Positions 13,495 to 30,585 of a stretch of DNA of 64,000 nucleotides are shown here, one piece after another (the first letter of the stretch is position 1; every line of letters begins with the position of its first letter). The position numbers were made by a program, and so were the translations under genes. Source of the stretch: Paraburkholderia aromaticivorans (lineage in GTDB: Bacteria > Pseudomonadota > Gammaproteobacteria > Burkholderiales > Burkholderiaceae); the NCBI RefSeq assembly GCF_002278075.1, contig NZ_CP022990.1, forward strand, positions 186,001 through 250,000, read 5' to 3'. Under the pieces are notes generated by a model. The model saw nothing but the letters and a program-made list of their open reading frames with translations. It was not told the DNA's origin and ran no database searches.

Positions 13495-13515
13495 AGTACG
13501 TTATCGTACAACTAT
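13495..13515 (-). promoter_or_regulatory. Candidate hexuronate-regulon operator (site 1)
   Basis: Minus strand reads GTTGTACGATAACGTAC, 15 of 17 positions identical to the best copy at 25362. It lies about 90 bp before the start at 13601 and directly after a possible -10 (GATAAT, 13489-13494), a position where a bound protein would block transcription. Confidence 0.65.
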
Positions 13516-13600
13516 CGCTGGATCGGCCGGCAGTGCCGTGACGACGCAAAGCGATTGCGATATCCGAGTTCGATCGCGCACGGCGCAGTAAAGGAACCCT

Positions 13601-14437
13601 ATGAAAAAGATTGCTCTGAGTGGAGCCGGTGGTCAGCTAGGCTCGGTGGTGCGCGCCGCGTTGATCGCGCGCGGCACGCCGTTGCGTTCGGCCGCGGGCT
13701 CGAAAGCCCTCGTGCCCCTGGTGGATGGCGAAGACGTGATGCACGGCGACCTGCGCGACCCCGCGGTCGTGGACCGCCTGCTGGAAGGTGTCGACGTCCT
13801 GATCCATTTCGCGGGTACCAGCGTGGAGCGGCCGCTGCCCGAGATCATCGAGAACAATCTGCGCGGGTTGGTCGAGGTGTACGAAGGCGCGCGCCGCCAG
13901 GGCGTGCGGCGCATCGTGTTCGCCAGTTCGAATCACGCTATCGGCATGTACCCCGTGACTGAACATCTGAGCCTCGATTGCGAGTTGCGCCCTGACGGTT
14001 TTTACGGGCTGAGCAAGGTGTGGGGTGAAGCGCTGGCCAGAATGTACTGGGACAAACACGGTATCGAGAGTGTGTGCGTGCGCATCGGCAGCTGCCTCGA
14101 GCGGCCGACCGAGCCGCGGCATCTGAGCACCTGGTTCGGCCATCGCGATCTGCTGCATTTCCTCGACCGCTGTGTCGAAGCCGAGAAGGTGGGCTTCCTG
14201 ACCATCTGGGGTGTGTCGGCCAATACGCGAAGCTGGTGGGACAACAGCGGCGCCGAGCGGCTGGGCTATCGGCCGACGCAAAACGCCGAAGCCTACGCCG
14301 AAGAGATTCTCGCGCGGCCGAATCCGCTCGACGCGCTGGGTCAGCGCTTCCAGGGCGGCAGCTTTGTGGGTATCGACTATTCGCGCGATGATGCCGGCCC
14401 GGACGGCTCGGCCGCTTGCGCAACGCGGCCTGCTTGA
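13601..14437 (+). CDS. NAD-dependent epimerase/dehydratase, uronate dehydrogenase paralog
   Basis: This 278-residue extended short-chain dehydrogenase has the Rossmann motif GAGGQLG at residues 8-14, FASSNHAIG near residue 107 and the catalytic YGLSK. Overall layout, including WWDN near the C-terminus, matches uronate dehydrogenases, and it is clearly paralogous to the gene at 27184, though diverged. Uronate dehydrogenases oxidise D-galacturonate or D-glucuronate with NAD to the aldarolactone. It is followed 29 bp later by exuT, with which it probably forms an operon. A related sugar-acid substrate different from that of the second copy is possible. Confidence 0.8.
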   Translation: MKKIALSGAGGQLGSVVRAALIARGTPLRSAAGSKALVPLVDGEDVMHGDLRDPAVVDRLLEGVDVLIHFAGTSVERPLPEIIENNLRGLVEVYEGARRQGVRRIVFASSNHAIGMYPVTEHLSLDCELRPDGFYGLSKVWGEALARMYWDKHGIESVCVRIGSCLERPTEPRHLSTWFGHRDLLHFLDRCVEAEKVGFLTIWGVSANTRSWWDNSGAERLGYRPTQNAEAYAEEILARPNPLDALGQRFQGGSFVGIDYSRDDAGPDGSAACATRPA

Positions 14438-14466
14438 GCAGTCCAGGACAACGAGGAGACGCAGCA

Positions 14467-15759
14467 ATGAAAATCAAGGGCATCCGCTGGTGGATGGTCA
14501 GCCTGGTCGCGGCCGGACTCATCATCAATTATCTCGCGCGCAATACGCTGTCAGTGGCGGCGCCGACGTTGATGAAAGACCTCCACATCACCACGGAGCA
14601 GTATTCGCACGTGGTCGTGGCGTGGCAGCTTTGCTATGCATTCATGCAGCCGGTCGCCGGCTTCCTGCTCGATACCGTCGGCACCAAGATCGGCTTTGCG
14701 GCGTTCGCGCTGGCGTGGTCGTTGGCGTGCGCCGCGGCGGCGTGGTCGACGGGCTGGCGCAGCCTCGCGTTCTTCCGCGGCCTGCTGGGCATCGCGGAAG
14801 CGGCCGGCATTCCGGCCGGCGTCAAGGCGACGAGCGAGTGGTTCCCCGCCAGGGAGCGCTCGGTGGCGATCGGCTGGTTCAACATCGGCTCCTCGATCGG
14901 CGCGTTGCTGGCGCCGCCGCTGGTGGTCTGGGCGCTGCTGCGCGGCGAATGGCAACTGGCGTTCGTGATCGTCGGTGTTGCCGGGATCGTCTGGAGCGTG
15001 CTGTGGATGGTGCTCTACAAACACCCGCTCAAGCAGAAGCTGTTGGGCGACGCCGAGCGCGACTACATTCTGAGCGGCCAGGAAGCGAAGCACAGCGACG
15101 CCGGCGCCGCGAGGCGCAGTTGGTTCACCATGCTCCGCAGCCGCGACTTCTGGGCGATCGGCATTCCGCGCATTCTGTCCGAACCGGCCTGGCAGACTTT
15201 CAACGCGTGGATTCCGCTGTACATGATGACCGAACGTCACATGAACCTGAAGGAAGTCGCGCTGTATGCGTGGATGCCGTTTCTGGCCGCGGACATCGGC
15301 TGCGTGCTGGGCGGCTACCTCAGCCCGCTGTTTCACAAGTACGCCGGGGTGTCGCTCTTCACGTCGCGCAAGATGGTGTTCGTGGTCGGCGCGCTGTGCA
15401 TGATCGGACCGGCCTGCGTCGGCCTGGTGGCGAGTCCTTATGTGGCGGTGGCGCTGCTGTGCGTCGGCGGTTTCGCGCATCAGACCTTGTCGGGTGCGCT
15501 GTACGCGATCACGTCGGATATGTTCGGCAAGAATGAGGTGGCTACCGCGACCGGCATGGGCGGCATGGCGGGCTACCTGGGCGCGGCGGCGTTCACGGCG
15601 CTGTTCGGGGTGCTGGTCACGCAGGTCGGCTACAGCCCGTTGTTCGTCGTGCTGGCGGTGTTCGACATTATCGCGGCCGCCGTGGTGTGCCTGCTGGCGA
15701 AAAGCGCCGACAAGACGCCCGAGCCGCGCTGGACGCCGGCGAACGCGGTGGCCAAATGA
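14467..15759 (+). CDS. exuT: Hexuronate transporter, MFS anion:cation symporter family
   Basis: The start at 14467 has GAGGAGAC 5 bases upstream. The 430-residue product has 12 predicted membrane helices and is strikingly like enterobacterial ExuT along its length: NYLARNTLSVAAPTLM, SEWFPARERSVAIGWFN, SSIGALLAPPLVVWA, EPAWQTFNAWIPLYM and GGFAHQTLSGALYAITSDMF. ExuT imports galacturonate and glucuronate with protons. The gene follows the uronate dehydrogenase paralog, matching a transport-plus-oxidation pair. It ends before a bidirectional terminator. Confidence 0.9.
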   Translation: MKIKGIRWWMVSLVAAGLIINYLARNTLSVAAPTLMKDLHITTEQYSHVVVAWQLCYAFMQPVAGFLLDTVGTKIGFAAFALAWSLACAAAAWSTGWRSLAFFRGLLGIAEAAGIPAGVKATSEWFPARERSVAIGWFNIGSSIGALLAPPLVVWALLRGEWQLAFVIVGVAGIVWSVLWMVLYKHPLKQKLLGDAERDYILSGQEAKHSDAGAARRSWFTMLRSRDFWAIGIPRILSEPAWQTFNAWIPLYMMTERHMNLKEVALYAWMPFLAADIGCVLGGYLSPLFHKYAGVSLFTSRKMVFVVGALCMIGPACVGLVASPYVAVALLCVGGFAHQTLSGALYAITSDMFGKNEVATATGMGGMAGYLGAAAFTALFGVLVTQVGYSPLFVVLAVFDIIAAAVVCLLAKSADKTPEPRWTPANAVAK

Positions 15760-15815
15760 TGCTGGCCGGCTTGCGATGATGCGTTCCGCCCGCTGATCGA
15801 GCGAGCACGTAATAG

Positions 15816-15849
15816 AAAAATGGCGGCGCTTTCGGGCGCCGCCATTTTT
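15816..15849. terminator. Bidirectional Rho-independent terminator
   Basis: Perfect 14-bp inverted repeat AAAAATGGCGGCGC / GCGCCGCCATTTTT with a 6-base loop. The flanking A and T runs make it usable on both strands, between the convergent exuT and polygalacturonase genes. Confidence 0.92.
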
Positions 15850-15928
15850 GCTTCTGCTCACCGCGTTCCTTCAATCTTCACGGCTGGACGAAGCTCGCGC
15901 TTCGCGCAGCCGGTCGATCTCCTGCCGC

Positions 15929-17953
15929 TTACCGTTTATCGACGACCGTCGTGTTGTACGTCGTCGCACCGATCACCACATTGTTCAACGTAATGCCGTT
16001 GACGTTGTACGCGTAGATCGGCCCAGGCGTGGTCGCGCTCGCGGGGCCGGCCGAGACCGCCGTGCCCAGATTGCAGTTCGAGATCGTCACGCCGGTGATC
16101 GGCGGAATGGCCGGGGCCGGCGCCGCGCCGTTGTAGTCGAACGCGACAGGCCCTTGCGCGACGATCGCCTGGAAGCACGAGCCGGTCACGCCGCCCACCG
16201 TCACGTTGCTCGCCGTCACGTTCGAAATGTTCACGTTCTGCACGACTGCCGGACGAATGCGAATCGCGTCGTTGGCCGGTTGATAGTCGCAGTCGAACGT
16301 GATCAGCCCGCCCTGTGCCGCCGACGGATTGGCCGCCGCCGCCGTCACGACCCCGAGCGGCACCGTGGCATTGATCGGGCTGCCGCTCAGCAACGCGCTG
16401 CCGTAGCCCCCGCCCTTCAGGCTGACGCCGTTGGGCAGCGTGACGGTATCCACATAGAAGTTCTTCACGAAGCCGCCGCGATTCATGTTCGTCTTGATGC
16501 GAATCGCGATGTTCAGCGGATTGGTCGCCCAGTTCTGGTTCAGCATCTTCAGATTGCGCGCGTAGATGTTCTGCACGCCGCCGCCCATTTCGCTGCCGAG
16601 CGTGATGCCGCCGTGGCCGCTGTTCATCGTGCAGTTCTGGATCACGTGATTCTGCGCGGGACCGTACTGCGTATCCAGATCCTTGCCCGATTTGATCGCG
16701 ATGCAGTCGTCGCCGGTGTTGAACGTCACGCTGTCGCAGAGCACGTTGTTGCACGCGTCCGGATCGAAGCCGTCGTTATTCGGGCCGATGCTGTTGGTCG
16801 TCACGCCGCGAATCACGACGTTCTTGCAATCGGTCGGATGATGCTGCCAGAACGGTGTGTTGTTGGTGGTGTAGTTCTCCATCAACACATTCGTGCAGCC
16901 GATGAACTCGACCATGCACGGACGCAGATAGTGGCCGACGCCGAACACCCGCTGCGCGATCGGCACGCCGGCTTCGGAGAGGGCGGGCAGATAGTTCTGG
17001 TCCTCTTGCCAGGGTGTCGTGGGGCTGGTCAGTTGCGCATACAGCGCGTCGGAAATGCCGGGTGCGGCGGTTTTCAGGTCGACGTTCTTCGGGTTGAGAA
17101 ATGCCTGCGACGGCGTCGACGAATTCACGCAGCCGTACGCGCCATTCGATCCCTTGAAGGTCCACCAGCAGGTGGCGGTGTTGCCGCTGCCGGCGAACGG
17201 CGTCATGGCCTGGCCGTTGAGCACCGAGCTCGCGTCCTCGCCGGTCAGGGCGATATTGGTCTGGTTGCGCGCATAGACAGGGGAGCCGTAGTTGAGGCAA
17301 TCGTTCGCCTGCCAGCGGCTGTAGAACAGGTTGCCGTTGGCGCCGCAGGCGACCGGGCCGTCCTTCGCGTAGTCCGCTGGGTTCGGGCTGAAGTAGATCG
17401 TGCAATTCGCGCTGAGGTGGAAGTTCACGTTGCTGAGCAGGACGATCGGTCCGGCGCAGTACCACGTGCCGGCCGGCACGACCACGCGTCCGCCGCCGGC
17501 GGCGTTGCAGGCCTGGATGGCGGCGAGAAAGGCCGGGCGCGAGTCGAACGAGCCGGCGGCGTTGGTCAGGTTCGAACCGGGACTCGCGACCGACGCCGAG
17601 CCCGTATACGGATTGGCGGCGACGACGACGGCGCACGGCGCAGCGCCGTATTGCGTGACCACGAAGTCGCGGGCCGGGAACATCGACTGGGTGATGCCCT
17701 GCAGGGACGCGATGATCTGCGTCGCGGCGCCCGAGGTGCCCCAGATCGGATCCTGTACGACAGGCGGTGTGACCGGAGCGGAGGTACCGCCGGTGACGGA
17801 TCCGCCGCAAGCGGAGAGCCCGCCAAGCAGGGTCGCGCCCGCGGACGTTCCCGCCAGCACGATAAAGGCGCGGCGAGCGGGCGAATTCGGTTCGGTCGGG
17901 CCGGGCGCGCCTGATGTCGCCCGCTTGCCGTTGTTTTTATCGATGATTGCCAC
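15929..17953 (-). CDS. Exported polygalacturonase, glycoside hydrolase family 28 (Tat lipoprotein)
   Basis: The start is set at GTG 17953, six bases after AAGGAGACATCC; a TTG 33 bp upstream lacks this. The N-terminus has a twin-arginine signal (SPARRAFIVLAG) ending in a lipobox LSAC, so the enzyme is probably folded in the cytoplasm, exported by Tat and lipid-anchored. All four GH28 signatures are present in order: NNDGFDPD, GDDCIAIKSG (Asp 415 and 416), SGHGGITLGSE and IRIKTN. These place the catalytic aspartates, histidine and Arg/Lys pair. It would hydrolyse polygalacturonate from pectin. At 674 residues it is longer than many bacterial GH28 enzymes, with extra N-terminal sequence. Confidence 0.9.
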   Translation of the reverse strand: MAIIDKNNGKRATSGAPGPTEPNSPARRAFIVLAGTSAGATLLGGLSACGGSVTGGTSAPVTPPVVQDPIWGTSGAATQIIASLQGITQSMFPARDFVVTQYGAAPCAVVVAANPYTGSASVASPGSNLTNAAGSFDSRPAFLAAIQACNAAGGGRVVVPAGTWYCAGPIVLLSNVNFHLSANCTIYFSPNPADYAKDGPVACGANGNLFYSRWQANDCLNYGSPVYARNQTNIALTGEDASSVLNGQAMTPFAGSGNTATCWWTFKGSNGAYGCVNSSTPSQAFLNPKNVDLKTAAPGISDALYAQLTSPTTPWQEDQNYLPALSEAGVPIAQRVFGVGHYLRPCMVEFIGCTNVLMENYTTNNTPFWQHHPTDCKNVVIRGVTTNSIGPNNDGFDPDACNNVLCDSVTFNTGDDCIAIKSGKDLDTQYGPAQNHVIQNCTMNSGHGGITLGSEMGGGVQNIYARNLKMLNQNWATNPLNIAIRIKTNMNRGGFVKNFYVDTVTLPNGVSLKGGGYGSALLSGSPINATVPLGVVTAAAANPSAAQGGLITFDCDYQPANDAIRIRPAVVQNVNISNVTASNVTVGGVTGSCFQAIVAQGPVAFDYNGAAPAPAIPPITGVTISNCNLGTAVSAGPASATTPGPIYAYNVNGITLNNVVIGATTYNTTVVDKR

Positions 17954-18131
17954 GGATGTCTCCTTGCCCTTTGCGGGCGTTGTCAAATGTCGTTGCTATT
18001 CGGATGGATGCGGCTGGTCAAAGACGTTGTCTTAACGTAAGGTATCCTTAATAATTGTGAAAAAAATCTGCCGGCGAGGTGCCATGCGGCTTTGCTCATG
18101 CGCAGCGAAAAAGGCGAACGAACGCACGTAT

Positions 18132-18196: not shown

Positions 18197-19090
18197 TTAA
18201 GCGGGTTTCTGCCCGATCTCGTGATTGGCGAGGATTTCGAGCGCGCGCACCATCGCCGAGTGATCCCACGCCTTGCCGCCATGCGCGACGCAGGCGTTGA
18301 ACAGTGCCTGGCAGGTGGCGGTATTCGGCAGCGAGACGCCGAGCGATTGCGCCGTCGAAAGCGCGAGGTTCAGATCCTTCTGGTGCAGTTCGATACGGAA
18401 ACCCGGATCGAAGGTGCGCTTGGTCATGCGTTCGCCGTGCACTTCGAGAATGCGCGACGACGCGAACCCGCCCATCAGCGCTTCACGCACGCGCGCCGGA
18501 TCCACGCCGGCTTTGGACGCGAGCAGCAGCGCTTCGCCGACTGCCTCGATCGTCGCCGCGACGATCACCTGGTTGGCCACCTTGCACACCTGTCCCGCGC
18601 CGACGCCGCCAATCAGCGTGACGTTCTTGCCCATCATGTCGAAGAGCGGCTTGACGCTCTCGTACGTCGCGGTTTCGCCGCCCACCATGATGGTCAGCGA
18701 GCCGGCCTTGGCGCCGACTTCGCCGCCGGAAACCGGCGCATCCAGATAGTCCGCGCCGTGCTCGCGCACGCGGGCCGCGAACTCGCGCGTGGCCATCGGC
18801 GAAATCGAGCTCATGTCGACGACGGTTTGTCCCGCGCGCAACGCGCTTGCGAGGCCCTGTTCGCCGAACAGCACGCGTTCGACGTCGGGCGTATCCGGCA
18901 CCATGATGAAGATCACGTCGGCGTGCGCGGCGACGGCGGCCGGGCTGTCGCACGCGACGGCGCCCGCCTGGACGAGATCGTCGGGCACGCCGCTGCGCGT
19001 GAACGCTGCCAGCGCGACGCCGTTCTTGAGAAGGTTGGCGGCCATGGGCTTGCCCATGATGCCGAGTCCGATAAAGCCTGCTTTTTGCAT
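18197..19090 (-). CDS. garR: 2-hydroxy-3-oxopropionate (tartronate semialdehyde) reductase
   Basis: The start at MQKAGFIG is preceded by GGAGCATTTC. The 297-residue enzyme belongs to the beta-hydroxyacid dehydrogenase family: NAD(P) motif FIGLGIMGKPMA at residues 5-16, substrate motif DAPVSGGEVGAKAG near residue 120, and catalytic lysine in GAGQVCKVANQ. It reduces tartronate semialdehyde, made by GarL, to glycerate. It follows garL after 31 bp and ends the operon. Relatives act on methylmalonate or other semialdehydes, but the garL neighbour supports the call. Confidence 0.88.
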   Translation of the reverse strand: MQKAGFIGLGIMGKPMAANLLKNGVALAAFTRSGVPDDLVQAGAVACDSPAAVAAHADVIFIMVPDTPDVERVLFGEQGLASALRAGQTVVDMSSISPMATREFAARVREHGADYLDAPVSGGEVGAKAGSLTIMVGGETATYESVKPLFDMMGKNVTLIGGVGAGQVCKVANQVIVAATIEAVGEALLLASKAGVDPARVREALMGGFASSRILEVHGERMTKRTFDPGFRIELHQKDLNLALSTAQSLGVSLPNTATCQALFNACVAHGGKAWDHSAMVRALEILANHEIGQKPA

Positions 19091-19121
19091 GAAATGCTCC
19101 GAAGATGTCACGGCGGCCGGT

Positions 19122-19922
19122 TTACTGCTGGCCCGCCTGTTTCTGCATGAAATGTTTTTGAACCGTCTGCGCGGCGCCTTTCAGCAGCCCCATGTCCGCA
19201 CAGACCGCGACGACGCGGCAGCCCATGCCGATGTAGCGCTCCGCGTCGGCCTGGACCGGGGCGAGGATGCCGCTCGGCTTGCCCGCGGCTTGCGCGCGTT
19301 CGAACACGTGCGCGATGGCCTGTTGCACGTCGGGATGACTCGGGTTGCCGATTCGGCCGTAGGCGGCCGCGAGGTCGGACGGCCCGACGAACACGGCGTC
19401 CACGCCGTCCACGGCGAGAATCTCGTCGATTGCGTCGACCGCCTTGCGGCTTTCTATCTGCACGATGACGCAGACGTTGTCGTTGGCAATGTCGAAGTAG
19501 TCGGGCACGGTCGCGTAGCGATTACCGCGCTGGCTCACCGAGACGCCGCGAATGCCTTGCGGCGGGTAGCGCGTGGCGGTGACGGCGCGCGCCGCGTCGT
19601 CGGCGCTGTCGACGAACGGCACCAGAAAATTCGAGAAGCCGCTGTCGAGGAGCCGTTTGATGAATACACTGTCGTTAGCGGGCGGCCGGACGACTGGCGC
19701 GCTGGCGCTGTCCTTGAGCGCCATCAATTGGGGGATCAGCGTCAGCACGTCGTTCGGTGCGTGCTCGGCATCCAGCAACATCCAGTCGAAGCCGACCACG
19801 CCGAGCAGTTCGGTCACGATCGGGCTGGCGAGCGACGCCCAGCAGCCGATCAGGGTTTCGCCGCCGCGCACCGCTCGGCGAAAACTATTGGGTAAGGCCT
19901 GGTAGGGCGTGACGGCAGGCAT
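19122..19922 (-). CDS. garL: 5-keto-4-deoxy-D-glucarate aldolase, HpcH/HpaI family
   Basis: A 266-residue class II pyruvate aldolase of the HpcH/HpaI family, with catalytic His 54 in LLDAEHAP, Arg in VRPPAND, metal ligands Glu in VQIES and Asp in VGPSDLA. GarL cleaves 5-keto-4-deoxyglucarate (or 2-keto-3-deoxyglucarate) to pyruvate and tartronate semialdehyde. It is the first gene of garL-garR and divergent from the dioxovalerate dehydrogenase gene, with two candidate operator sites in the shared promoter region. Other HpcH-type aldolases cannot be excluded by sequence alone. Confidence 0.87.
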
Positions 19923-19990: not shown

Positions 19991-20010
19991 TGGTTATAGG
20001 TCGTCGTATG
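19991..20010. promoter_or_regulatory. Candidate hexuronate-regulon operator (site 2), garL side
   Basis: TGGTTATAGGTCGTCGTATG matches site 3 or site 6 in about two thirds of its positions, and carries the GT...CGTAT frame of the motif. It lies 69 bp upstream of the garL start. Confidence 0.5.
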
Positions 20011-20109
20011 TCTAGAATTCAGATTAGCACCGGCTCTGCCGATTGTAACGGCCACGTAAACCCGAATTCCTCACCAGGCAAGCGTTTCAGCTTGCAGGTG
20101 TAGTCTCTG

Positions 20110-20130
20110 ATGTTGTAGGATGACCTATAT
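20110..20130 (+). promoter_or_regulatory. Candidate hexuronate-regulon operator (site 3), dioxovalerate dehydrogenase side
   Basis: Contains GTTGTAGGATGACCTAT, which differs from site 6 at 25461 in one base over 17. It lies 28 bp before the ATG at 20158, a position suited to repression. Confidence 0.75.
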
Positions 20131-20157: not shown

Positions 20158-21741
20158 ATGTCTATTACCGGCGAAATGCTGATCGGTCGCAAAACGGTGC
20201 GCGGCGAGGAAAAACCATTGCATGCGTTCAATCCTGCCACGGGATCGGACATCGCGGAGCCGGTTTTCGGCAGCGGCTCGGCTGCCCACGTCGGCGAGGC
20301 CTGCGAGCTCGCGCGGCAAGCTTTCGATCCGTATCGCCAGTTGCCGCTCGCGGTGCGCGCCGAATTTCTCGAGCGCATTGCCGACGGCATCATGGCATTG
20401 GGCGATGCGTTGATCGAGCGGGCGCAACAGGAGTCGGGCTTGCCCAAGGCGCGTCTCGAAGGCGAGCGCGGCCGCACCACCGGGCAGCTCAAATTGTTCG
20501 CGCAAGTCGTGCGCGCCGGCCAGTGGCTCGCCGCCACGCTCGATTCGCCGCTGCCGGAGCGCAAGCCGTTGCCGCGCTCCGATCTGCGCCTGCAAAAGAT
20601 TCCGCTCGGGCCGGTCGCGGTGTTCGGCGCCAGCAATTTTCCGCTCGCGTTTTCGGTGGCGGGCGGCGATACCGCGGCGGCGCTCGCTGCGGGCTGCCCG
20701 GTGGTGGTGAAGGCGCATCGCGCTCACCTGGGCACTTCGGAGATGGTCGGCCGCGTGATCCAGCGTGTCGCGCAGGAAATGGACTTGCCGGAAGGCGTGT
20801 TCTCCCTGATCGTCGGCGCCGGGAATTCCGTTGGCGAAGCGTTGGTTGCGCATCCGGCGATCAAGGCAGTGGGCTTCACCGGTTCGCGCGCGGGCGGCAC
20901 CTCGCTGATGCGCGTGGCGGCGGCGCGCGCCGAGCCGATTCCGGTCTACGCGGAAATGAGCAGCATCAACCCAGTGTTCCTTCTGCCGAGCGCGCTGGCT
21001 CAGCGCGGCGAGAGCATCGCGCGCGGCTTCGTCGATTCGCTGGTGCTCGGCGCCGGCCAGTTCTGTACCAATCCGGGTCTCGCGATTGCCGTCGATAGCG
21101 ACGCGCTCAAGGACTTCGTTGCAACCGCGTCCGACGCGCTGAGCGGCAAGCCCGCGCAGACCATGCTGACGTCCGGCATCCACGCCGCTTATGAAGAAGG
21201 CGAGGGCAAGCTGGCCGCGACCAAAGGCGTCGAGGCCGTGGCGCGCGGCGTCGACGCAACCGGTCCGACGCAGGCGCGCGCGGCGTTGTTCGTGACCGAT
21301 GCGCAGACGTTCCTCGCCACGCCCGCGCTGGAAGACGAAGTGTTCGGCCCGGCTTCCACCATCGTGCGTTGCAAGGACGAGCAGGAGATGCTCGCGGTCG
21401 CCGAGCACTTCGCCGGTCAGTTGACCGCCACGGTGCAGATGGACAGCGCCGACCTGCCGGCGGCGAAGAAGCTGGTGCCGATTCTCGAACGCAAAGCCGG
21501 CCGGATTCTGGTGAACGGTTTCCCGACGGGCGTCGAAGTGTCGCACGCGATGGTGCACGGCGGCCCGTTCCCGGCCACCTCGGACAGCCGCGCGACGTCG
21601 GTCGGCACGACTTCGATCGAACGCTTCCTGCGTCCGGTGTGCTACCAGGATTTCCCGGCCGATCTGCTGCCCGAGGCGCTGACCGACGGCAATCCGCTGA
21701 ATCTGTGGCGCCGCCGCGATGGCGAAATCACGCGCAGCTAA
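20158..21741 (+). CDS. 2,5-dioxovalerate (alpha-ketoglutarate semialdehyde) dehydrogenase
   Basis: AAGGAAAGCGAA precedes ATG. The 527-residue enzyme is an aldehyde dehydrogenase of the alpha-ketoglutarate-semialdehyde group: [16 protein letters not shown], general base Glu 266 in [10 protein letters not shown] and catalytic Cys 303 in [10 protein letters not shown]. It oxidises 2,5-dioxopentanoate, the product of KdgD, to 2-oxoglutarate with NAD(P), delivering the carbon to the citric acid cycle. It stands alone between garLR and gntR and ends in a strong terminator. Similar enzymes serve hydroxyproline and pentose pathways, so it could be shared. Confidence 0.92.
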
Positions 21742-21770: not shown

Positions 21771-21800
21771 AAAAATGGCCGGGATATCCCGGCCATTTTT
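21771..21800. terminator. Bidirectional Rho-independent terminator
   Basis: A perfect 30-bp palindrome with arms AAAAATGGCCGGGAT and ATCCCGGCCATTTTT. It separates the dioxovalerate dehydrogenase gene from the convergent gntR gene and can serve both. Confidence 0.93.
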
Positions 21801-21859
21801 CTTTGCGTTCACGGCGACCGTAGCGCGACTTCGCTACGACTTCGCCCTGACGAATCCAA

Positions 21860-22603
21860 TCAGCTATTCGCCTCGGCGGCTTCGTTCGCGCGCCGCAAGC
21901 GCTCGCGGCTATTGGACAGATGCATCCGCATAGCCGCGCGCGCGCCTTCCGCGTCGTGCCGCGTGATCGCTTCGAGAATGCTTTCGTGTTCGAGATTCAC
22001 GAGCGACAGATACGCATCCGGTTCCGCGCGTGCGATGCCCGCCGAGTCGAGCCGGTTACGCGGAATCAGCGCGCTGCCCATTTGCGTGAGGATGTCGACG
22101 AAATAGCGGTTGCCGGTCGCGCGCGCCACCGAGATATGAAACTGCAGATCGGCATCGACACTGTCCAGCCCGTTATGACGCGTGGCTTCGATCGCGTCGA
22201 GCGCGGCGCGCATGCGCGCGAGGTCGTCCGGCTTGGCGCGCTGGGCGGCCAGCCCCGCGCATTCCGTTTCGAGGCTGATGCGCAGTTCCAGGATCGACAA
22301 TACGTCGCGCAAAGTGGTGGCGGGCACCATGTCGATGCCCAGCTTTTCACGCTGCGGCTCCAGCACGAAACTGCCGATGCCGTGCCGCGTCTCGATGATC
22401 TTGCCCGCCTGCAATCGCGAAATCGCTTCACGAATGACGGTGCGGCTCACGCTCAGCGTGACCATGAGCTGTGACTCGGTCGGCAGTTTGTCGCCGGGTT
22501 TCAAGGCGCTGGACGCAATCTGCTCGGTGACGTAGCTGACGACGAACTCGGCAAGATTACGAGCGCGTCGTGGCGGTGCCGCGGATGCCAGTGGTGTAGC
22601 CAT
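21860..22603 (-). CDS. GntR-family transcriptional regulator, FadR subfamily
   Basis: AAGGGG lies 9 bases before ATG. The 247-residue protein has an N-terminal winged helix-turn-helix (residues about 20-85: LPTESQLMVTLSVSRTVIREAISRLQAGKIIETRHGIGSFV) and an all-helical FCD effector domain with the metal-site pattern Asp/His...His (DADLQFHISVARATGN, later HESILEAI). FadR-type regulators of this kind bind dyads of the t-GT-N-AC-a type and answer to sugar acids. Its place in the middle of the island and the dyad before its own gene make it the likely controller, probably an autoregulated repressor released by a hexuronate or aldarate intermediate. Confidence 0.9.
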   Translation of the reverse strand: MATPLASAAPPRRARNLAEFVVSYVTEQIASSALKPGDKLPTESQLMVTLSVSRTVIREAISRLQAGKIIETRHGIGSFVLEPQREKLGIDMVPATTLRDVLSILELRISLETECAGLAAQRAKPDDLARMRAALDAIEATRHNGLDSVDADLQFHISVARATGNRYFVDILTQMGSALIPRNRLDSAGIARAEPDAYLSLVNLEHESILEAITRHDAEGARAAMRMHLSNSRERLRRANEAAEANS

Positions 22604-22650: not shown

Positions 22651-22680
22651 ATTATACCGTCGTCTGACGACTGATTATAT
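22651..22680. promoter_or_regulatory. Candidate autoregulatory operator (site 4) upstream of gntR
   Basis: The core GTCGTCTGACGAC (22659-22671) is a perfect 13-base dyad, flanked by ATTATAC and TGATTATAT, which makes the whole segment nearly symmetric and AT-rich at the edges. It lies 56 bp upstream of the gntR start and after the end of the MFS gene. Confidence 0.6.
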
Positions 22681-22824: not shown

Positions 22825-24177
22825 TTAGCGCGGGCGCAACTCGACCCGTTTGATGTCTTTGACGATCACGAGATAGCTGAACACCGTGAGCAGGGCATTG
22901 ATGCCCACGAACACCAGCGCGCCGTTGAACGATCCGCTCTTCGCCACGAGATAGCCGATCACGATCGGCGTCACGATGCCGGCCACGTTGCCGAACATAT
23001 TGAAGATCGCGCCGGACAGCCCGAGCGCTTCCTTCGGCGACGTGTCGGCGACCACGGCCCAGCCGAGCGCGCCGATGCCTTTGCCGAAGAACGCGAGCGA
23101 CATGAGGGCGACGACGACCCAGTCGGTCGTCACGTAGTTGCAGCCGATGATGCATACCGACAGCAGCATGCCGCCGACGATCGGCACCTTGCGCGCGATC
23201 GTGAGCGAATGGCCGCGACGGATCAGCCCGTCGGACAGGATGCCGCCGAGCACGCCACCGGAGAATCCGCAGATCGCCGGCAGCGAGGCCACGAGGCCCG
23301 CTTGCAGAATCGTCATGCCGCGCGCCTGCACGAGGTAGATCGGAAACCAGGTCAGGAAGAAGTAGGTCAGCACGTTGATGCAGTACTGCGCGAGATAGAC
23401 GCCGAGCAGCATGCGATTGCCCAGCAGTTGGCGAACCAGATGCCAGCCGCCGGCGTTTTCGATCTTCCCGACGGATCGGGTTGTCTTCTGCCCGTTGACC
23501 ACGCCGCCGCCCTGTTCGATGTACTCCAGCTCGGCACGCGAGACACGCGGATGGTCGGCAGGGTTCTTCATCATCTTAAGCCAGGTGAGCGCGAGCAGAA
23601 GCCCCGTCGCGCCCATCACGACATACACCATATGCCAGCCGAACGCGTGCGTGAGCCACGCCATCAGCGGCGTAAAGACCACGGCGGCGAAGTACTGCGC
23701 CGAATTGAAAATGGCCGACGCCGTGCCGCGTTCATTGGTGGGGAACCAGCTCGCCACCACCTTGGCATTGGCGGGGAACGCCGGCGATTCGGCCGCGCCC
23801 ATCGCAAAGCGCAGCGCGAACAGCGCGGCGATGGCCGCCGCCGCGCTGCCCAGCAGGCCGATCGCGCCTTGCAGCAGGGTGAATAGCGACCAGAAGAAGA
23901 TGCTCGCCGCGTAGACGCGCCGCGCGCCGAAGCGATCCAGCAGCCAACCGGCCGGCAGTTGCGACAGCACGTACGCCCAACTGAACGCGGAAAAAATGTA
24001 GCCCATGCGGATCGCGTCGAGACCGAATTCGGCGCGCATGGCCGAACCGGTCACCGACAGCGTGGCGCGGTCCGCGTAATTGAAGGTCGTGATCAGAAAG
24101 ATCAGCAGCAGGATCGCGTAGCGGACTCGGGTACGCTTCGCGACGTGGGCGGCACTCGCCGTGCGGCTCAATTCCAT
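22825..24177 (-). CDS. MFS sugar-acid transporter, GudP/D-glucarate-type
   Basis: The start is placed at MELSRTAS (24177) because AGGAG stands six bases before it; the ATG two codons earlier overlaps the ribosome site. The 450-residue carrier has 12 membrane helices and the ACS-family signature (TFNYADRATLS, SPAFPANAKVVASWFPTNERGTASAIFNS). GudP and its relatives import D-glucarate and galactarate. A terminator lies between kdgD and this gene, so it needs its own promoter or limited read-through. It is the second of three uptake systems in the island. Confidence 0.87.
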   Translation of the reverse strand: MELSRTASAAHVAKRTRVRYAILLLIFLITTFNYADRATLSVTGSAMRAEFGLDAIRMGYIFSAFSWAYVLSQLPAGWLLDRFGARRVYAASIFFWSLFTLLQGAIGLLGSAAAAIAALFALRFAMGAAESPAFPANAKVVASWFPTNERGTASAIFNSAQYFAAVVFTPLMAWLTHAFGWHMVYVVMGATGLLLALTWLKMMKNPADHPRVSRAELEYIEQGGGVVNGQKTTRSVGKIENAGGWHLVRQLLGNRMLLGVYLAQYCINVLTYFFLTWFPIYLVQARGMTILQAGLVASLPAICGFSGGVLGGILSDGLIRRGHSLTIARKVPIVGGMLLSVCIIGCNYVTTDWVVVALMSLAFFGKGIGALGWAVVADTSPKEALGLSGAIFNMFGNVAGIVTPIVIGYLVAKSGSFNGALVFVGINALLTVFSYLVIVKDIKRVELRPR

Positions 24178-24279
24178 GGTCATCTCCTGAAGTTCTTATG
24201 CGCGGGAGCGGGCTCCCCGGGCGTCGCGCCGCCGCAAGCGGCCACGAGCCTCGTCGATACCTTCGCGCGGCACAAAAAC

Positions 24280-24381: not shown

Positions 24382-25299
24382 TTACTGCGGGCCGAGCGTC
24401 TTGATGAGCGCGTCCAGCTTGTCCATTTCTTCTTCGGTCAGATCGGTCAGCGGCGCGCGCACCGGCCCGGCGCTGTGGCCGACCAGCTTCGCGCCCGCCT
24501 TGACGATGCTGACCGCGTAGCCCGCGCGGCGGTTGCGAATGGCGAGGTACGGCAGGAAGAATTCGTCGATCAGCTTGCCGACGGTCGCGTGGTCGTCCGC
24601 GGCGATCGCGCGGTAGAAGTCCATCGCGGTCTTTGGAATGAAGTTGAACACCGCCGACGAATACACCGGCACGCCAAGCGCCTTGTAGGCCGCGGCATAG
24701 ACTTCCGCGGTCGGCAGGCCGCCGAGATACGAGAAGCGCTCGCCAAGGCGGCGGCGGATCGACACCATGTTCTCGATCTCGCCCACGCCGTCCTTAAAGC
24801 CGATCAGGTTCGGGCAGCGCTCGGCCAGCCCTTCGAGCATATCGGCGTTAAGCTTGGAATTCGCGCGGTTGTAGATGATCACACCCATGTTCGGCACGGA
24901 CTTGCAGACTTCTTCGGCATGCGCGGCGATGCCTTCCTGGCAGGCTTCCGTCAGGTAATGCGGCATCAGCAGAATGCCGTTCGCGCCATGCCGCTCGGCT
25001 TCCTGTGCGTAGGCGATCGCGACCCGCGTCGGACCGCCCGCTCCGGCGAGAATCGGCACCTTGCCTTTACAGACTTCCGTGGCCGTGCGCACCACGTTCG
25101 AATAGTCGCTGTGCGTGAGCGAGAAGAATTCGCCCGTGCCGCCGGCGACGAACAGCGCCGACGCGCCATAAGGTGCGAGCCATTCCAGGCGCTCGGCATA
25201 GGTGTCGGCGCGGAAATCACCGTGCTCGTCGAAGTCGGTAACGGGGAAGGACAGGAGGCCTTCGGAAACGATCTGCTTCAGTTCCTGCGGTGTCGTCAT
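24382..25299 (-). CDS. kdgD: 5-dehydro-4-deoxyglucarate dehydratase (decarboxylating)
   Basis: A 305-residue member of the DapA/N-acetylneuraminate lyase TIM-barrel family, with Schiff-base Lys 169 in IGFKDGVG and catalytic Tyr 143 in IIYNRANS, plus [12 protein letters not shown] near residue 50. It removes water and CO2 from 5-keto-4-deoxyglucarate to yield 2,5-dioxopentanoate, the substrate of the dehydrogenase at 20158. It is divergent from garD, sharing a promoter region with two operator-like sites. Length and motifs fit the family well. Confidence 0.93.
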
Positions 25300-25361: not shown

Positions 25362-25384
25362 TTATACGTCATCGTACAACAACA
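25362..25384 (-). promoter_or_regulatory. Candidate hexuronate-regulon operator (site 5), kdgD side
   Basis: Minus strand reads GTTGTACGATGACGTAT, the best match to the consensus drawn from all copies. It lies 63 bp upstream of kdgD. The nearby perfect dyad GCAGCATAATGCTGC (25410-25424) holds CATAAT/CATTAT words that could be -10 elements in either direction. Confidence 0.75.
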
Positions 25385-25460
25385 AATCCACCAACTCAAC
25401 GGGCATTTGGCAGCATAATGCTGCTACTAGGGTAAATACGGAACGTCTGCGGAATCTTTC

Positions 25461-25481
25461 ATGTTGTAGGATGACGTATGA
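25461..25481 (+). promoter_or_regulatory. Candidate hexuronate-regulon operator (site 6), garD side
   Basis: Contains GTTGTAGGATGACGTAT, one base different from site 5. It lies 44 bp before the garD start. Confidence 0.75.
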
Positions 25482-25524: not shown

Positions 25525-27114
25525 ATGGAACAATCTCCGCTCTACATTCGCGTTCACCCCAATGACAATGTCGCGATCGTCGTCAACGACGGCGGGCTGG
25601 GTGAGGGCGCGGTATTTCCCGATGGTCTGGCGCTGCGCGAGCGGGTGCCGCAAGGGCACAAGGTCGCGCTGGCCGATCTGGCCGAAGGCGACGAAGTCAT
25701 CCGCTATAACGTGGTGATCGGCTATGCGCTCAAGGCGTTGCCGAAAGGCAGCTGGATCAACGAACACGTGATTCGCATGCCGAGCCCGCCGGGACTCGAA
25801 GATCTGCCGATCGCCACGATCAAGGCGCCGCCGATGCCGCCGCTCGAAGGCTTCACGTTCGAGGGCTACCGCAACGCGGACGGCTCGGTCGGCTCGCGCA
25901 ACATTCTCGCCATCACGACCACGGTGCAATGCGTGGCCGACGTGGTTCAGCATGCGGTCACGCGCATCAAGGCCGAGTTGCTGCCGAAGTACCCGAACGT
26001 CGACGACGTGGTGAGCCTCGGCCACACGTATGGTTGTGGTGTCGCGATCGACGCGCCCGACGCGATGGTGCCGATCCGCACCGTGCGCAATATCAGCCTG
26101 AATCCGAATTTCGGCGGCGAGGTGATGATGGTCAGCCTCGGCTGCGAGAAGCTGCAGCCCGAGCGCCTGATGCCGCCCGGCACGATTCCGATCGCCGCGG
26201 CCGCCAATGTGGCCGAAGTCGCGGACATCGGCGATATCGAGGCGGATCTGAACGGCGACGTCGTGGTGCTTCAGGACGAGGCGCACGTCGGCTTCCAGTC
26301 GATGATCGAGTCGATCATGAAAATGGCCGATGGTCATCTGCAGCGCCTGAACAATCGCCGCCGCGAGACATGTCCCGCGTCCGATCTGGTGATCGGCGTG
26401 CAATGCGGCGGCAGCGACGCGTTCTCCGGTCTCACCGCCAATCCGGCGGTGGGCTACGCGACCGACCTGCTGGTGCGTGCCGGCGCCACGGTCATGTTCT
26501 CCGAAGTCACCGAGGTGCGCGACGGCGTCGATCAACTGACGGCGCGCGCGGCCAACGCCGAAGTTGCCGCGGCGATCATCCGCGAGATGCAGTGGTACGA
26601 CGATTATCTGAAGCGCGGCGGCGCCGACCGCAGCGCCAACACCACGCCGGGCAACAAGAAGGGCGGCTTGTCGAACATCGTCGAAAAGGCGATGGGCTCG
26701 ATCATCAAGTCGGGCAACTCGGCCATCTCCGGCGTGTTGTCGCCCGGCGAAAAGGTCAAGCAGAAAGGCCTGATTTACGCGGCCACGCCGGCGAGCGATT
26801 TCATCTGCGGTACGTTGCAGGTGGCGGCGGGTATCAATCTGCACGTTTTCACCACCGGCCGCGGCACGCCGTACAGCCTCGCCGAAGTGCCGGTCATCAA
26901 GGTCGCGACGCGCTCGGATCTGGCGCGCCGCTGGCATGACCTGATGGATGTCAACGCCGGCACCATCGCGACCGGTGCGGCGACCATCGAAGAGGTGGGC
27001 TGGGAATTGTTCCGTCTGATGCTCGACGTCGCCAGCGGCCGCAAGCAAACCTGCGCGGAAAAACTCAAGCTCCACAATGCGCTAGTGCTGTTCAATCCGG
27101 CGCCGGTGACCTGA
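25525..27114 (+). CDS. garD: Galactarate dehydratase
   Basis: ATG 25525 follows AAGGATCGATGCA. The 529-residue protein matches the UxaA/GarD family in length and layout: an N-terminal SAF-like domain (residues 1-90), then the catalytic region with [37 protein letters not shown] and [20 protein letters not shown]; the conserved cysteines and histidine probably bind the catalytic iron. It converts galactarate (meso-galactaric acid) to 5-keto-4-deoxy-D-glucarate. It is the first gene of the garD-udh-lactonase operon. Confidence 0.94.
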
Positions 27115-27183: not shown

Positions 27184-28026
27184 ATGACTGACTTGAATCT
27201 CGATCGCAGCGCGGCCCCCAAACCCTTCCGCCGGCTGCTGCTCACCGGCGCGGCGGGCAACCTCGGCCAGCAACTGCGCGGCGCGCTCGCTGCGTGGGCC
27301 GATATCGTGCGCGTCACGGATATCGCGCCGCTCGGCGAGGTGGCGGCGCACGAAGAGGCGTCGACAGTCGATCTCGCGGACGAGGCCGCCGTCCACGCGC
27401 TGCTCGAAGGCGTGGACGCGGTGATTCACCTCGGCGGCATTTCCGTCGAGGCGCCGTTCGAAGCGCTGCTCGAAGCGAATATCCGCGGTCTGTATCACCT
27501 CTATTCGGCCGCGCAGAAGCAGGGCGTGAAGCGCATCGTGTATGCGAGCTCGAATCACGCGGTGGGTTTTCATCCGGTGACGGATGTGGTCGATATCGAC
27601 GCGCCGCCGCGCCCCGATAGCCTGTACGGCGTGACGAAGTGCTTCGGCGAATCGTTGTCGCGCTACTACTTCGATCGCTTCGGTCTGGAGACAGTGTGCC
27701 TGCGCATCGGCTCGTCGTTCGAGCAGCCGAAAAATCCGCGCATGCTCGTCACGTATCTGAGCTACCGCGACTTCATCGAACTGGTGCGCTGCTCGCTGTT
27801 CACCAATCGCGTAGGCCACGCGATCGTCTACGGCGTCTCGGATAACCGCACCAAGTGGGTCGATAACACCAAAGCCGCGTTCCTCGGCTTTCGTCCGCAG
27901 GACAGCTCGGTCGAGTTCGAACATCTCTTTCCGGTCACGGCACCCACGACCGACCTCGACGATCCGACCCAGCGTTTCCAGGGCGGCCCGTTCGTGCTCG
28001 CCGGGCCGATGGAGCCCAAGCGGTGA
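27184..28026 (+). CDS. udh: Uronate dehydrogenase
   Basis: A 280-residue extended short-chain dehydrogenase very close to characterised Pseudomonas/Agrobacterium Udh: RRLLLTGAAGNLG (Rossmann motif), IVYASSNHAVGFHPV, YGVTKCFGE with the catalytic Tyr/Lys, LRIGSSFEQPKNPRML, and YGVSDNRTKWVDN. It oxidises galacturonate or glucuronate with NAD to the corresponding aldaro-lactone in the cytoplasm. It sits 69 bp after garD and overlaps the lactonase by 4 bp, fitting consecutive steps. Confidence 0.94.
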   Translation: MTDLNLDRSAAPKPFRRLLLTGAAGNLGQQLRGALAAWADIVRVTDIAPLGEVAAHEEASTVDLADEAAVHALLEGVDAVIHLGGISVEAPFEALLEANIRGLYHLYSAAQKQGVKRIVYASSNHAVGFHPVTDVVDIDAPPRPDSLYGVTKCFGESLSRYYFDRFGLETVCLRIGSSFEQPKNPRMLVTYLSYRDFIELVRCSLFTNRVGHAIVYGVSDNRTKWVDNTKAAFLGFRPQDSSVEFEHLFPVTAPTTDLDDPTQRFQGGPFVLAGPMEPKR

Positions 28027-28952
28027 GCGCCGCGGCGAACCCGCGCGTGGAGCGGGTGGAGGCGGCAGGACAGGCGCCGGCTTCGGTCGGCGAAAGTCCG
28101 GTGTGGCGGGTGGCGGAGCAGGCGCTCTACTGGGTCGACATTCCGGCGCAGAAGATCGTGCGGTTGCGGCTCGACTCGGGTGAGCGTTGCGCGTGGCGGC
28201 TGCCGGAAAAGGTGGCATGCATTGCGTTCGACCATCGCGGCACGGTGCTGGCCGGCTGCGAGACCGGGCTGTTCGCCGTCGCGCTCACCGAGGGCGTGGC
28301 CGGCGGCGAGTCCGCGCAGGTGACAGGGCGCAAGCTCGCCGCGCCGGACTTCCCATGCGACGACATGCGTTTTAACGACGGCCGTTGCGACCGGCAAGGG
28401 CGCTTCTGGTCCGGCACGATGGTGCAGGACATGGCGGCGGCCAAGCCGGCCGGCGCGCTCTACCGATTCGACGCGCACGGCGTGCTGTCGGCGCCGGTCG
28501 TCGACGCGCTCATCACGCAGAACGGCCTCGGGTGGTCGCCCGACGGCCGGACCATGTATCTGTCGGACTCGCATCCTTTGCGCAGGCAGATCTGGGCATT
28601 CGACTACGACATCGAGACGGGCGAGCCGCGCAACCGTCGCGTGTTCGCCGACCTGAATCAGCATGCGGGCCGTCCCGACGGCGCCGCGGTGGATGCCGAC
28701 GGTTGCTACTGGATTTGCGCGAACGACGCCGGTTTGTTGTTGCGCTTCACGCCGCAAGGCAAGCTGGACCGGCGGATTGCCGTGCCTGCGACCAAGCCGG
28801 CCATGTGCGCTTTCGGTGGGCGCGATCTGGACACGTTGTTCGTGACGTCGATTCGTCCCGCAGCGAACGCGAGCGAGCACGACGGCCATCTGTTTGCCGT
28901 GCGTCCTGGCGTGACCGGGCTGCCCGAACCGGAGTTCGCCGGCGCGTTGTAG
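28023..28952 (+). CDS. SMP-30/gluconolactonase-family aldarolactonase
   Basis: GTG start overlaps the udh stop (GTGA), indicating coupled translation. The 309-residue six-bladed beta-propeller shows the family metal-site residues: Glu in SVGESPVWR, Asn in NGLGWSPDG, Asp in HAGRPDGAAVD, and MRFNDGRCDRQGRFW. Such enzymes open sugar lactones with a divalent metal. By position it hydrolyses the galactaro- or glucaro-lactone released by Udh to the aldarate used by GarD. Exact lactone specificity is inferred. Confidence 0.88.
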   Translation: MSAAANPRVERVEAAGQAPASVGESPVWRVAEQALYWVDIPAQKIVRLRLDSGERCAWRLPEKVACIAFDHRGTVLAGCETGLFAVALTEGVAGGESAQVTGRKLAAPDFPCDDMRFNDGRCDRQGRFWSGTMVQDMAAAKPAGALYRFDAHGVLSAPVVDALITQNGLGWSPDGRTMYLSDSHPLRRQIWAFDYDIETGEPRNRRVFADLNQHAGRPDGAAVDADGCYWICANDAGLLLRFTPQGKLDRRIAVPATKPAMCAFGGRDLDTLFVTSIRPAANASEHDGHLFAVRPGVTGLPEPEFAGAL

Positions 28953-28971
28953 GCGCAGCTTGTGTGAGAAA

Positions 28972-29009
28972 GGCGCCGGCCATGTCGACATGGCCGGCGC
29001 CTTTCTTTT
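28972..29009 (+). terminator. Rho-independent terminator after the garD-udh-lactonase operon
   Basis: Perfect 13-bp arms GGCGCCGGCCATG and CATGGCCGGCGCC with a TCGA loop, then TTTCTTTT. AA before the left arm extends pairing with the first Ts. Confidence 0.94.
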
Positions 29010-29025
29010 GCTGGTCATGTTAATT

Positions 29026-29046
29026 CATCGCTCGTCGTACAACATT
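29026..29046 (-). promoter_or_regulatory. Candidate hexuronate-regulon operator (site 7)
   Basis: Minus strand reads GTTGTACGACGAGCGAT: the left half is perfect, the right half diverged. It lies just after the terminator and 547 bp before dctP, so it may be an auxiliary site. Confidence 0.5.
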
Positions 29047-29212
29047 GTGACGTAAAACTGACGGTTTGTGCGCGGAGCTGGCACCAAAACGCCGCGTCGA
29101 ATGACGCTGACCATTGCCTCCCAATTGCCGCGCCAGTTGGCTCGCCAATCGGCACACACCCGCTGCGCGCGAGGGTTCGTCCATCCCTGCCGATGCCTTG
29201 GTGGTGCGGGTA

Positions 29213-29233
29213 AATACCGTCTGTACAACTCAA
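29213..29233 (-). promoter_or_regulatory. Candidate hexuronate-regulon operator (site 8)
   Basis: Minus strand reads GAGTTGTACAGACGGTAT, one base shorter in the centre than the consensus but with both half-sites kept. It sits 40 bp (centre to centre, about four helical turns) from site 9. Confidence 0.55.
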
Positions 29234-29252
29234 ATTGCGTTTTATAGACTTC

Positions 29253-29275
29253 ATATGTTGTCGTACAACGTATAA
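29253..29275. promoter_or_regulatory. Candidate hexuronate-regulon operator (site 9)
   Basis: TATGTTGTCGTACAACGTAT is the most symmetric copy, with GTTGT facing ACAAC, and is the strongest candidate for the TRAP operon operator. It lies about 320 bp before the dctP start. Confidence 0.7.

Positions 29276-29379: not shown

Positions 29380-30585
<1,206 letters not shown>

Follow-up and report, generated by a model that had tools for sequence, protein, structure and literature searches.

Candidate operators of a FadR-subfamily GntR regulator in the hexuronate and aldarate gene cluster of Paraburkholderia aromaticivorans

Regulators of the FadR subfamily of GntR proteins bind dyad operators of the form TNGTNNNACNA, and GT...AC dyads serve as operators for UxuR/ExuR, LldR, NanR, PdhR and other members of this subfamily in Escherichia coli, of which UxuR and ExuR act in the isomerase and not in the oxidative pathway. 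Pairs of operators that lie around promoters and act through a DNA loop are found with NagC at nagE-nagB (~94 bp apart) and with GalR at gal (~114 bp apart). The closest described system is GguR of Halomonas, a GntR-family regulator which, according to the passages on it in PMC5507952, is predicted to control galactarate and glucarate genes and, in one strain, also Udh, Gli, Gci and the hexuronate transporter UxuPQM; in the portion of PMC6353982 covered, a search by term returned neither GguR nor GntR. The present report concerns a 64,000-nucleotide stretch of Paraburkholderia aromaticivorans (contig NZ_CP022990.1, positions 186,001 to 250,000; C2:186001-250000 of the 8.9-Mb genome G000), hereafter the window, in which nine sites lie before genes of a 16-kb hexuronate/aldarate cluster. 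We consider it very likely (probability about 0.87) that these sites are operators of the FadR-subfamily GntR regulator encoded in the same cluster at 21860-22603 on the minus strand, and that this protein is a repressor of the GguR kind, released by a diacid and acting also on its own gene. The sites, their conservation, their placement and their linkage to the GntR gene were all obtained by computation.

Candidate operators and promoter layout

The proposed operator is a 13-bp dyad, GTYRT-NNN-AYRAC, mostly with AT-rich flanks. Six exact copies of its core, GTYRTNNNAYRAC, are present in the 64 kb (13500-13512, 20112-20124, 22659-22671, 25368-25380, 25463-25475, and 29257-29269), each of them in a promoter of the hexuronate/aldarate cluster, and the half-sites of these cores, GTYGT in 8/12 and GTYAT in 4/12, agree with the FadR-type dyad. 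Since window sites should not be judged with themselves, a symmetric position weight matrix of 25 positions was built from orthologues only. Its training set comprised 162 distinct 25-mers around exact cores in promoters of 80 orthologous loci, and no 25-mer of the window was among them; because these training sites were chosen by their core, the matrix gives no independent evidence for the core letters. Applied to the window, the matrix returned exactly nine sites scoring at least 13.6 (35.1, 30.5, 28.5, 26.6, 22.2, 21.4, 16.5, 16.4, and 13.6), while the tenth match reached 8.3 and is centred at 33047, within a porin gene. In 30 sequences simulated by a second-order Markov model, the top score was 9.6 on average and 16.1 at most, and matches of at least 12 averaged 0.33, compared with nine in the window. 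By these simulated scores, the sites at 13.6, 16.4, and 16.5 are not significant alone, and their support comes from conservation in relatives.

The initial annotation had listed nine words as copies of one dyad and had noticed no others in the window. All nine words were found where it had placed them, and eight stand as copies of the dyad by pattern and by matrix, two of them with one mismatch in the core (20000-20012 and 29031-29043). The ninth, at 29213, is not among the nine matrix sites and falls in a separate conserved block, CGGGTAAATACCGTCTGTACAA. One site, 13375-13387, had been overlooked; it belongs to 12 further words in the window with one mismatch, and apart from it the absence of other copies holds, the next match being the one inside the porin gene. 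A one-mismatch word at 17979, at the start of the polygalacturonase gene, was rejected as an operator, as it lies outside the 30 best matrix matches.

The per-gene counts below come from the orthologous loci, which are related to each other, so that counts do not equal independent events, and intergenic regions of divergent genes enter from both sides. The first uronate dehydrogenase gene, udh2, is preceded by a pair of sites on the plus strand, 125 bp apart, with GTTATACGATGTC as the distal core (13375-13387, score 16.5) and GTTATCGTACAAC as the proximal, exact core (13500-13512, score 22.2); a core lies within 300 bp upstream in 32/34 udh2 orthologues, and 26/34 have two sites 124-126 bp apart. 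Between garL and the aldehyde dehydrogenase gene (aldH), garL is preceded by a minus-strand core, GACATACGACGAC (20000-20012, score 16.4), with CTATAAC after it, and aldH by an exact plus-strand core, GTTGTAGGATGAC (20112-20124, score 26.6). Two sites are likewise present in 45 of the 47 intergenic regions examined between the garL and aldH orthologues, and a core stands within 300 bp in 48/48 garL and 53/54 aldH orthologues. The site before gntR is a perfect dyad with exact core on the minus strand (22659-22671, score 21.4), directly followed by GGTATAAT, and is a candidate autoregulation site (core within 300 bp in 74/80 orthologues, matrix site within 650 bp upstream in 71/80). Before kdgD, we identified the exact core GTTGTACGATGAC on the minus strand, followed by GTATAAG (25368-25380, score 28.5; core within 300 bp in 62/73 orthologues), and before garD the exact core GTTGTAGGATGAC on the plus strand (25463-25475, score 30.5; 60/60 orthologues), which holds a candidate -10 element, TAGGAT, recognized by eye. 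The TRAP operon dctPQM has a distal core, CTCGTCGTACAAC (29031-29043, plus strand, score 13.6), and 226 bp from it a proximal exact core, GTTGTCGTACAAC (29257-29269, plus strand), with the best score of the window, 35.1. A core within 300 bp was present in 22/49 dctP orthologues, two sites in 33/49, and at least one matrix site within 650 bp in 49/49.

Read in the direction of the gene, the words directly after the operators are GTATAAG at kdgD, GTATGAAT at garD, CTATAAC at garL, CTATATC at aldH, and GGTATAAT at gntR. The mean best match to TATAAT (out of 6) was higher on this downstream flank than on the opposite one at kdgD (4.80 vs 3.26), garD (4.17 vs 2.86), garL (4.85 vs 3.13), aldH (3.88 vs 2.46), and gntR (5.89 vs 4.21), and a -10-like word stands on the same flank at the distal udh2 operator (3.96 vs 2.85) and the proximal dctP operator (4.37 vs 3.51). 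At udh2, a -35/-10-like pair, TTGAAA-17-AATAGT at 13469-13497, ends two bases before the proximal core. The simplest reading of this operator placement is a repressor that would cover the -10/start region.

Binding by GntR, repression and the effector are what we infer from this arrangement. Without substrate, a GntR dimer on the GTYRTNNNAYRAC dyad, overlapping or abutting the -10 element or start of most promoters, would block RNA polymerase. Galacturonate would be converted to galactarate through Udh and the lactonase and then dehydrated, and a diacid intermediate, either galactarate or 5-dehydro-4-deoxyglucarate, would bind the FCD domain, upon which GntR would leave the DNA. The genes then expressed would be gntR and those for uptake (TRAP, MFS), oxidation (Udh), dehydration (GarD), and the two downstream routes, one through KdgD and the aldehyde dehydrogenase, the other through GarL and GarR. 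The paired operators at kdgD/garD and udh2 probably act together, perhaps through a loop.

The regulator, its paralogue and its relatives

The protein encoded at 21860-22603, which had been taken for a FadR-subfamily regulator, does show the architecture of that subfamily, with an N-terminal GntR winged helix (PF00392, 66.2 bits, cut-off 27) and a C-terminal FCD domain (PF07729, 93.1 bits, cut-off 24.3). From the positions read in the protein, D152, H156, H206, and H228 are candidates for the FCD metal ligands, which we presume them to be. The protein is identical in Paraburkholderia aspalathi LMG 27731 and 99% identical in P. fungorum and P. xenovorans LB400. Its NCBIfam scores are all below the respective cut-offs, namely LldR 111.5 (cut-off 311), NanR 104.3 (260), PdhR 89.5 (330), UxuR 87.6 (442), ExuR 73.4 (396), and GlcC 73.1 (301).

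With promoters defined as the 300 bp upstream of udh2, garL, aldH, gntR, kdgD, garD, and dctP, the 80 orthologous loci contain 313 cores in 94,087 bp of promoter and 60 cores in 1,484,716 bp elsewhere, a density about 80 times higher in the promoters; of these 60, 29 precede dctP at more than 300 bp, and the remaining 31 were only partly assigned. At E 1e-40, 88 of 150 genomes sampled from the family, that of the window among them, encode a GntR homologue. We examined 40 further family loci, picked around GntR or its paralogue (L173-L177 around relatives of the paralogue) and including three, L160, L161, and L162, which are probably from the same genomes as L130, L128, and L134; a site near GntR or the paralogue was present in 35 of the 40 loci and absent from L146-L149 and the truncated L160. 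Of these loci, 28 come from genomes with only one match at E 1e-40; 26 of them have a site, and L149 and L160 are the only ones without. The 26 include genome G036 (L158), where the kdgD/garD sites are paired and 95 bp apart. At the level of the order, a match at E 1e-40 was obtained in 28 of 250 genomes, 25 of which belong to other families, and from these 25 genomes 20 loci were fetched. Sites were found in 19 of the 20 (in L207 and L213, only sites scoring below 16), amounting to 35 sites in 340,020 bp compared with 1.0 by simulation, and 28 exact cores compared with 6 for a control with reversed letters. The genes beside these out-of-family homologues include udh, smp30, dctPQM, kdgD, garD, and gudD. 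A class-wide sample of 274 genomes searched at E 1e-50 gave matches in G000 and in one genome of the same order only. The proposal of the initial annotation that the GntR protein encoded at 21860 controls the sites, including that of its own gene, gains support from the dyad accompanying GntR homologues across these relatives.

The exact core has 77 matches in the 8.9-Mb genome, six of them in the 16-kb cluster, compared with 165 for the reversed-letter control, and is thus not enriched genome-wide. A tighter pattern, GTYRTMNKAYRAC, by which 18 of the 77 were followed up, comprises the six matches of the cluster, one between gudP and a second gntR gene, and 11 others scoring 5.4-18.7. Ten of these 11 lie inside open frames of at least 200 codons, counted from stop to stop, which in GC-rich DNA is no proof of coding; the eleventh (L189) scores 9.3. 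Three places, C4:306610, C4:76538, and C1:205868, were rejected as regulon members since they lie inside frames whose translations read as outer-membrane-like, S-adenosylmethionine-synthetase-like, and MFS proteins. In this reduced run on exact cores, the matches did not scatter at random across the genome, an outcome that had been named beforehand as one speaking against a regulon; of 33 further places and 183 further matches, the first 100 of which were listed, a few were inspected, so that sites with a mismatched core elsewhere in the genome were possibly missed. The only other intergenic high-scoring site among the 18 is GTTGTCCGATGAC at C2:1581197 (score 25.6). It lies, as one operator, in the locus L049 (G000:C2:1573000-1590000) between gudP-gudD and a divergent second GntR gene at C2:1581520, whose product is 49% identical to the window GntR, with 61% identity in the helix-turn-helix region and 45% in the rest, which makes an overlap in binding likely. 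As far as the followed-up cores go, the predicted regulon consists of the 16-kb cluster and gudPD with its own gntR.

Operator spacing and alternative explanations

Between kdgD and garD, 58 of 59 loci have two sites and one has three. The operators are 95 bp apart in 52 loci, 94 bp in four, 96 bp in two, among them the locus with three sites, and 98 bp in one, and over 58 loci the standard deviation was 0.49 between the operators compared with 20.3 and 10.1 to the start codons. At udh2, the spacing is 124-126 bp in 26/26 two-site loci, and further pairs with the same box geometry also have 127 (2) or 128 bp (1). Where the spacers are <65% identical, the two loci of a pair have spacings equal to within 1 bp in 82% of 329 locus pairs for kdgD/garD and 96% of 161 for udh2, but in only 31% of 258 for garL/aldH and 14% of 351 for dctP, while the arms from operator to start codon agree in 8%, 16%, 22%, and 3%, respectively. 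Two of the pairs, kdgD/garD and udh2, are thus rigid and the other two are not. In one genus of the family (L150-L153), operators are exactly 189 bp apart in 4/4 loci, with spacers 65-80% identical. Two operators 95-102 bp apart were also observed in porin-like/chemoreceptor-like promoters of L128, L129, L132, L134, and L161-L163, the genes having been read in L161-L163; in L162 (10583-10840) and L163 (10885-11110), they lie between a porin-like gene and an apparently divergent chemoreceptor-like gene, both named from translations. The distance is 95 bp in L162 and L163, whose spacers are 41% identical, and 101-102 bp in L128, L129, and L161. Looping would explain such fixed spacing, and shared promoter geometry could do so too. 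Porin-like uptake and chemotaxis genes near some gntR homologues may be co-regulated.

GntR-mediated DNA looping between paired sites as the cause of the fixed spacing is possible, though we lean against it. It would account for the constancy of 95 bp at kdgD/garD, for spacings at kdgD/garD and udh2 that are kept across diverged spacers when the distances to the start codons are not, and for the recurrence of 95 bp in the porin-like/chemoreceptor-like promoters of L132, L134, and L163. However, the garL/aldH and dctP pairs are not rigid, the porin-like promoter also occurs with 101-102 bp (L128, L129), and no single helical phase was seen among the spacings (95, 111-112, 125-126, 189, and 210-218 bp, reckoned by hand at 10.5 bp per turn); moreover, two back-to-back promoters and an accessory box (see below) in the kdgD/garD spacer could alone fix the distance. 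That the words are chance matches or reflect general promoter composition is extremely improbable. The lower count of the core in the genome than of its reversed control would fit this explanation, but all six exact window cores stand in promoters of one pathway, nine window matches score at least 12 where 0.33 were expected, the promoters of relatives are some 80-fold denser in cores, and sites recur in other families of Burkholderiales. That GntR acts mainly as an activator at these sites also appears improbable. The distal sites at udh2 and dctP, 125 and 226 bp upstream of the proximal ones, are where activators can sit, whereas in five promoters the proximal operator overlaps or adjoins a -10-like word, and the related regulator DgoR is, by the title of PMC12288454, a repressor.

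A further alternative is that the paralogue beside gudPD binds the same operators, through shared control or overlapping specificity. Its identity to the window GntR, highest in the helix-turn-helix region, and the position of GTTGTCCGATGAC, which adjoins the paralogue gene on the side toward gudP, would agree with this, as would similar gudP sites beside relatives of the paralogue in L171, L173, L175, and L177. Against it, the local gntR has an operator of its own, the motif accompanies homologues of the local GntR into other families, and sites occur in nearly all single-match loci, including the G036 pair. This implies that the paralogue is not needed, which does not mean that it fails to bind, and as G036 keeps its paired sites with one match, the local GntR suffices to explain them. 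As an explanation of the sites, shared control or overlapping specificity is somewhat doubtful in our view; the paralogue at gudPD probably shares the operator. Several observations weigh against the local GntR as the repressor of all nine sites. The paralogue adjoins the same kind of site and could bind too; in 9/80 orthologues of gntR, the 650 bp before the gene contain no matrix site; L146-L149, with homologues 57-60% identical, have no operator within ~9 kb on each side, and the genome of L149 has no second match to GntR; a -10-like word stands on the other flank at the proximal udh2 (2.48 vs 4.06) and distal dctP (2.57 vs 3.60) operators; and a promoter scan gave 2 pairs compared with 3.6 in shuffles, which makes the -10 assignments weak. 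The homologues in L146-L149 are possibly a branch with another site.

Accessory box, cluster genes and comparison with known systems

A second conserved element, GGG(T)AAAYRC, occupies fixed places before the udh2, garD, and dctP operators, and is also found upstream of gudP in relatives and in the window genome's own gudPD locus (L049). On the plus strand of the window, it reads GGGTAAGTGCC at 13455-13465, 51 bp upstream of the centre of the proximal udh2 operator and upstream of the -35/-10-like pair; GGGTAAATACGG at 25430-25441, 39 bp before the centre of the garD operator; and GGGTAAATACCG at 29208-29219, 55 bp before that of the dctP operator, the last being part of the word that the initial annotation had placed at 29213. 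The form GGGTAAATAC has 101 occurrences in the window and the 80 loci, all within 250 bp of an operator, and GGGTAAATACSG has exactly two matches in the genome, both in the window (with one mismatch, 24 compared with 18 in the control). A relaxed box, GGG(T)AAA[TC], gave 163 occurrences, with distances from the first G to the operator centre of 39 bp (51 distinct contexts, garD), 55 bp (49, dctP), 51 bp (27, udh2), 49-50 bp (12, gudP and some garD), and 60 bp (4, one genus). Of eight control words, one occurred 62 times with a peak of 26; the other seven had 5-35 occurrences each, and one of these had a peak of 30. Conserved context alone can therefore yield peaks, though not as many as here. 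At dctP, the distance from box to operator is 55 bp in nearly all pairs, while that between operators varies from 201 to 226 bp. Anchored on the box, the best offset of a -10-like word outside it is +37 (z 3.2; 28 clusters at <60% identity, of which some are probably due to chance). GGGTAAATAC itself was rejected as a -10 element, as no conserved -35 was seen upstream by eye in the listed portion of the alignments.

The box is best read as a candidate activator site or promoter element. Our tentative proposal, for which the odds are a little short of even, is that the garD, dctP, udh2, and gudP promoters are dual-control units, with an operator over the -10/start region and an upstream box for an activator common to hexuronate/aldarate genes of Burkholderiaceae, and that the kdgD/garD box and two operators form a rigid 95-bp array with a possible repression loop. 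In the same proposal, and as tentatively, the distance from the first G of the box would be 39, 49-51, or 55 bp to the operator centre and ~37 bp to the likely -10, and the box would directly precede a -35 that is poor in most cases. Neither the box nor the fixed spacing was found in the literature passages covered, and no search was aimed at the box.

The genes of the cluster were assigned as follows. On the plus strand, udh2 (13601-14437) encodes a uronate dehydrogenase paralogue (best solved relative uronate dehydrogenase 3rft, E 4.7e-68), and an MFS sugar-acid transporter gene follows in the same direction (14464-15759; TIGR00893 E 1e-94, under its cut-off). The minus-strand gene for a GH28 polygalacturonase-like protein (15929-17986, PF00295) lies downstream of garL-garR, and the matrix scan of the window found no operator of its own for it. 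Also on the minus strand are garR, for 2-hydroxy-3-oxopropionate reductase (18197-19111, TIGR01505 above cut-off), and garL, for 2-dehydro-3-deoxyglucarate aldolase (19122-19922, TIGR03239 above cut-off). The plus-strand aldH (20158-21741, PF00171, nearest solved relative 3v4c) is probably for alpha-ketoglutarate semialdehyde, as judged from the cluster. A strong terminator-like hairpin of 14 pairs lies at 21770-21801, between the convergent aldH and gntR genes. Further minus-strand genes encode a garP-like MFS transporter (22825-24183, TIGR00893 above cut-off) and, as kdgD, 5-dehydro-4-deoxyglucarate dehydratase (24382-25299, TIGR03249 above cut-off). These are followed on the plus strand by garD, for galactarate dehydratase (25525-27114, TIGR03248 above cut-off), udh, for uronate dehydrogenase (27184-28026; best solved relatives uronate dehydrogenases 6mfh, E 1.6e-81, and 3rft, E 1.4e-78), a lactonase gene of the SMP-30/gluconolactonase family (28023-28952, PF08450 E 1.3e-79), and dctPQM (29581-32572), for a TRAP transporter probably of sugar acids, whose binding protein matches the solved chain 4n15 (E 6.3e-181). 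Two routes from one intermediate are encoded in this cluster and in one predicted regulon, the first through KdgD and the aldehyde dehydrogenase, the second through GarL and GarR. The regulon also holds two diverged uronate dehydrogenase paralogues, udh2 and udh, each in its own transcription unit.

For oxidative galacturonate breakdown in Paraburkholderia, these results give an operator, a short predicted regulon, and a candidate regulator, and they offer promoter parts expected to respond to sugar acids. As the same operator accompanies GntR through several families of Burkholderiales, pectin-sugar use should become easier to predict from sequence. The conserved box points to a second regulator, unnamed in the portions of the literature covered.

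Compared with UxuR/ExuR, LldR, NanR, and PdhR of E. coli, the window GntR has the same GntR and FCD architecture but is far under their NCBIfam cut-offs. With NagC at nagE-nagB and GalR at gal, the locus shares two operators at similar distance around promoters, for which looping is only a hypothesis here, although the window GntR belongs to an unrelated protein family. Like GguR of Halomonas, it is a GntR-family regulator encoded among galactarate/glucarate genes, and its predicted regulon likewise reaches a uronate dehydrogenase gene (udh2) and a probable sugar-acid transporter (dctPQM) (GguR passages of PMC5507952). Here, garD, kdgD, garL, and garR lie beside gntR, operators precede garD, kdgD, and garL in relatives and a site precedes gudPD, all presumably under its control; so, presumably, are udh2 and dctPQM, which have operators as well, and the same genes stand beside homologues in other families. 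Halomonas, however, is of another order, the likeness is one of gene content, and the passages on GguR make no mention of paired operators or a GGGTAAA box (PMC5507952). The kind of system is therefore known, because a GguR regulon has been predicted in Halomonas (PMC5507952, same passages), whereas the instance and its predicted operator in Paraburkholderia and relatives are documented here from sequence alone; it is ordinary as a system of this kind, with the rigid operator pairs and the accessory box as two features that deserve experiment.

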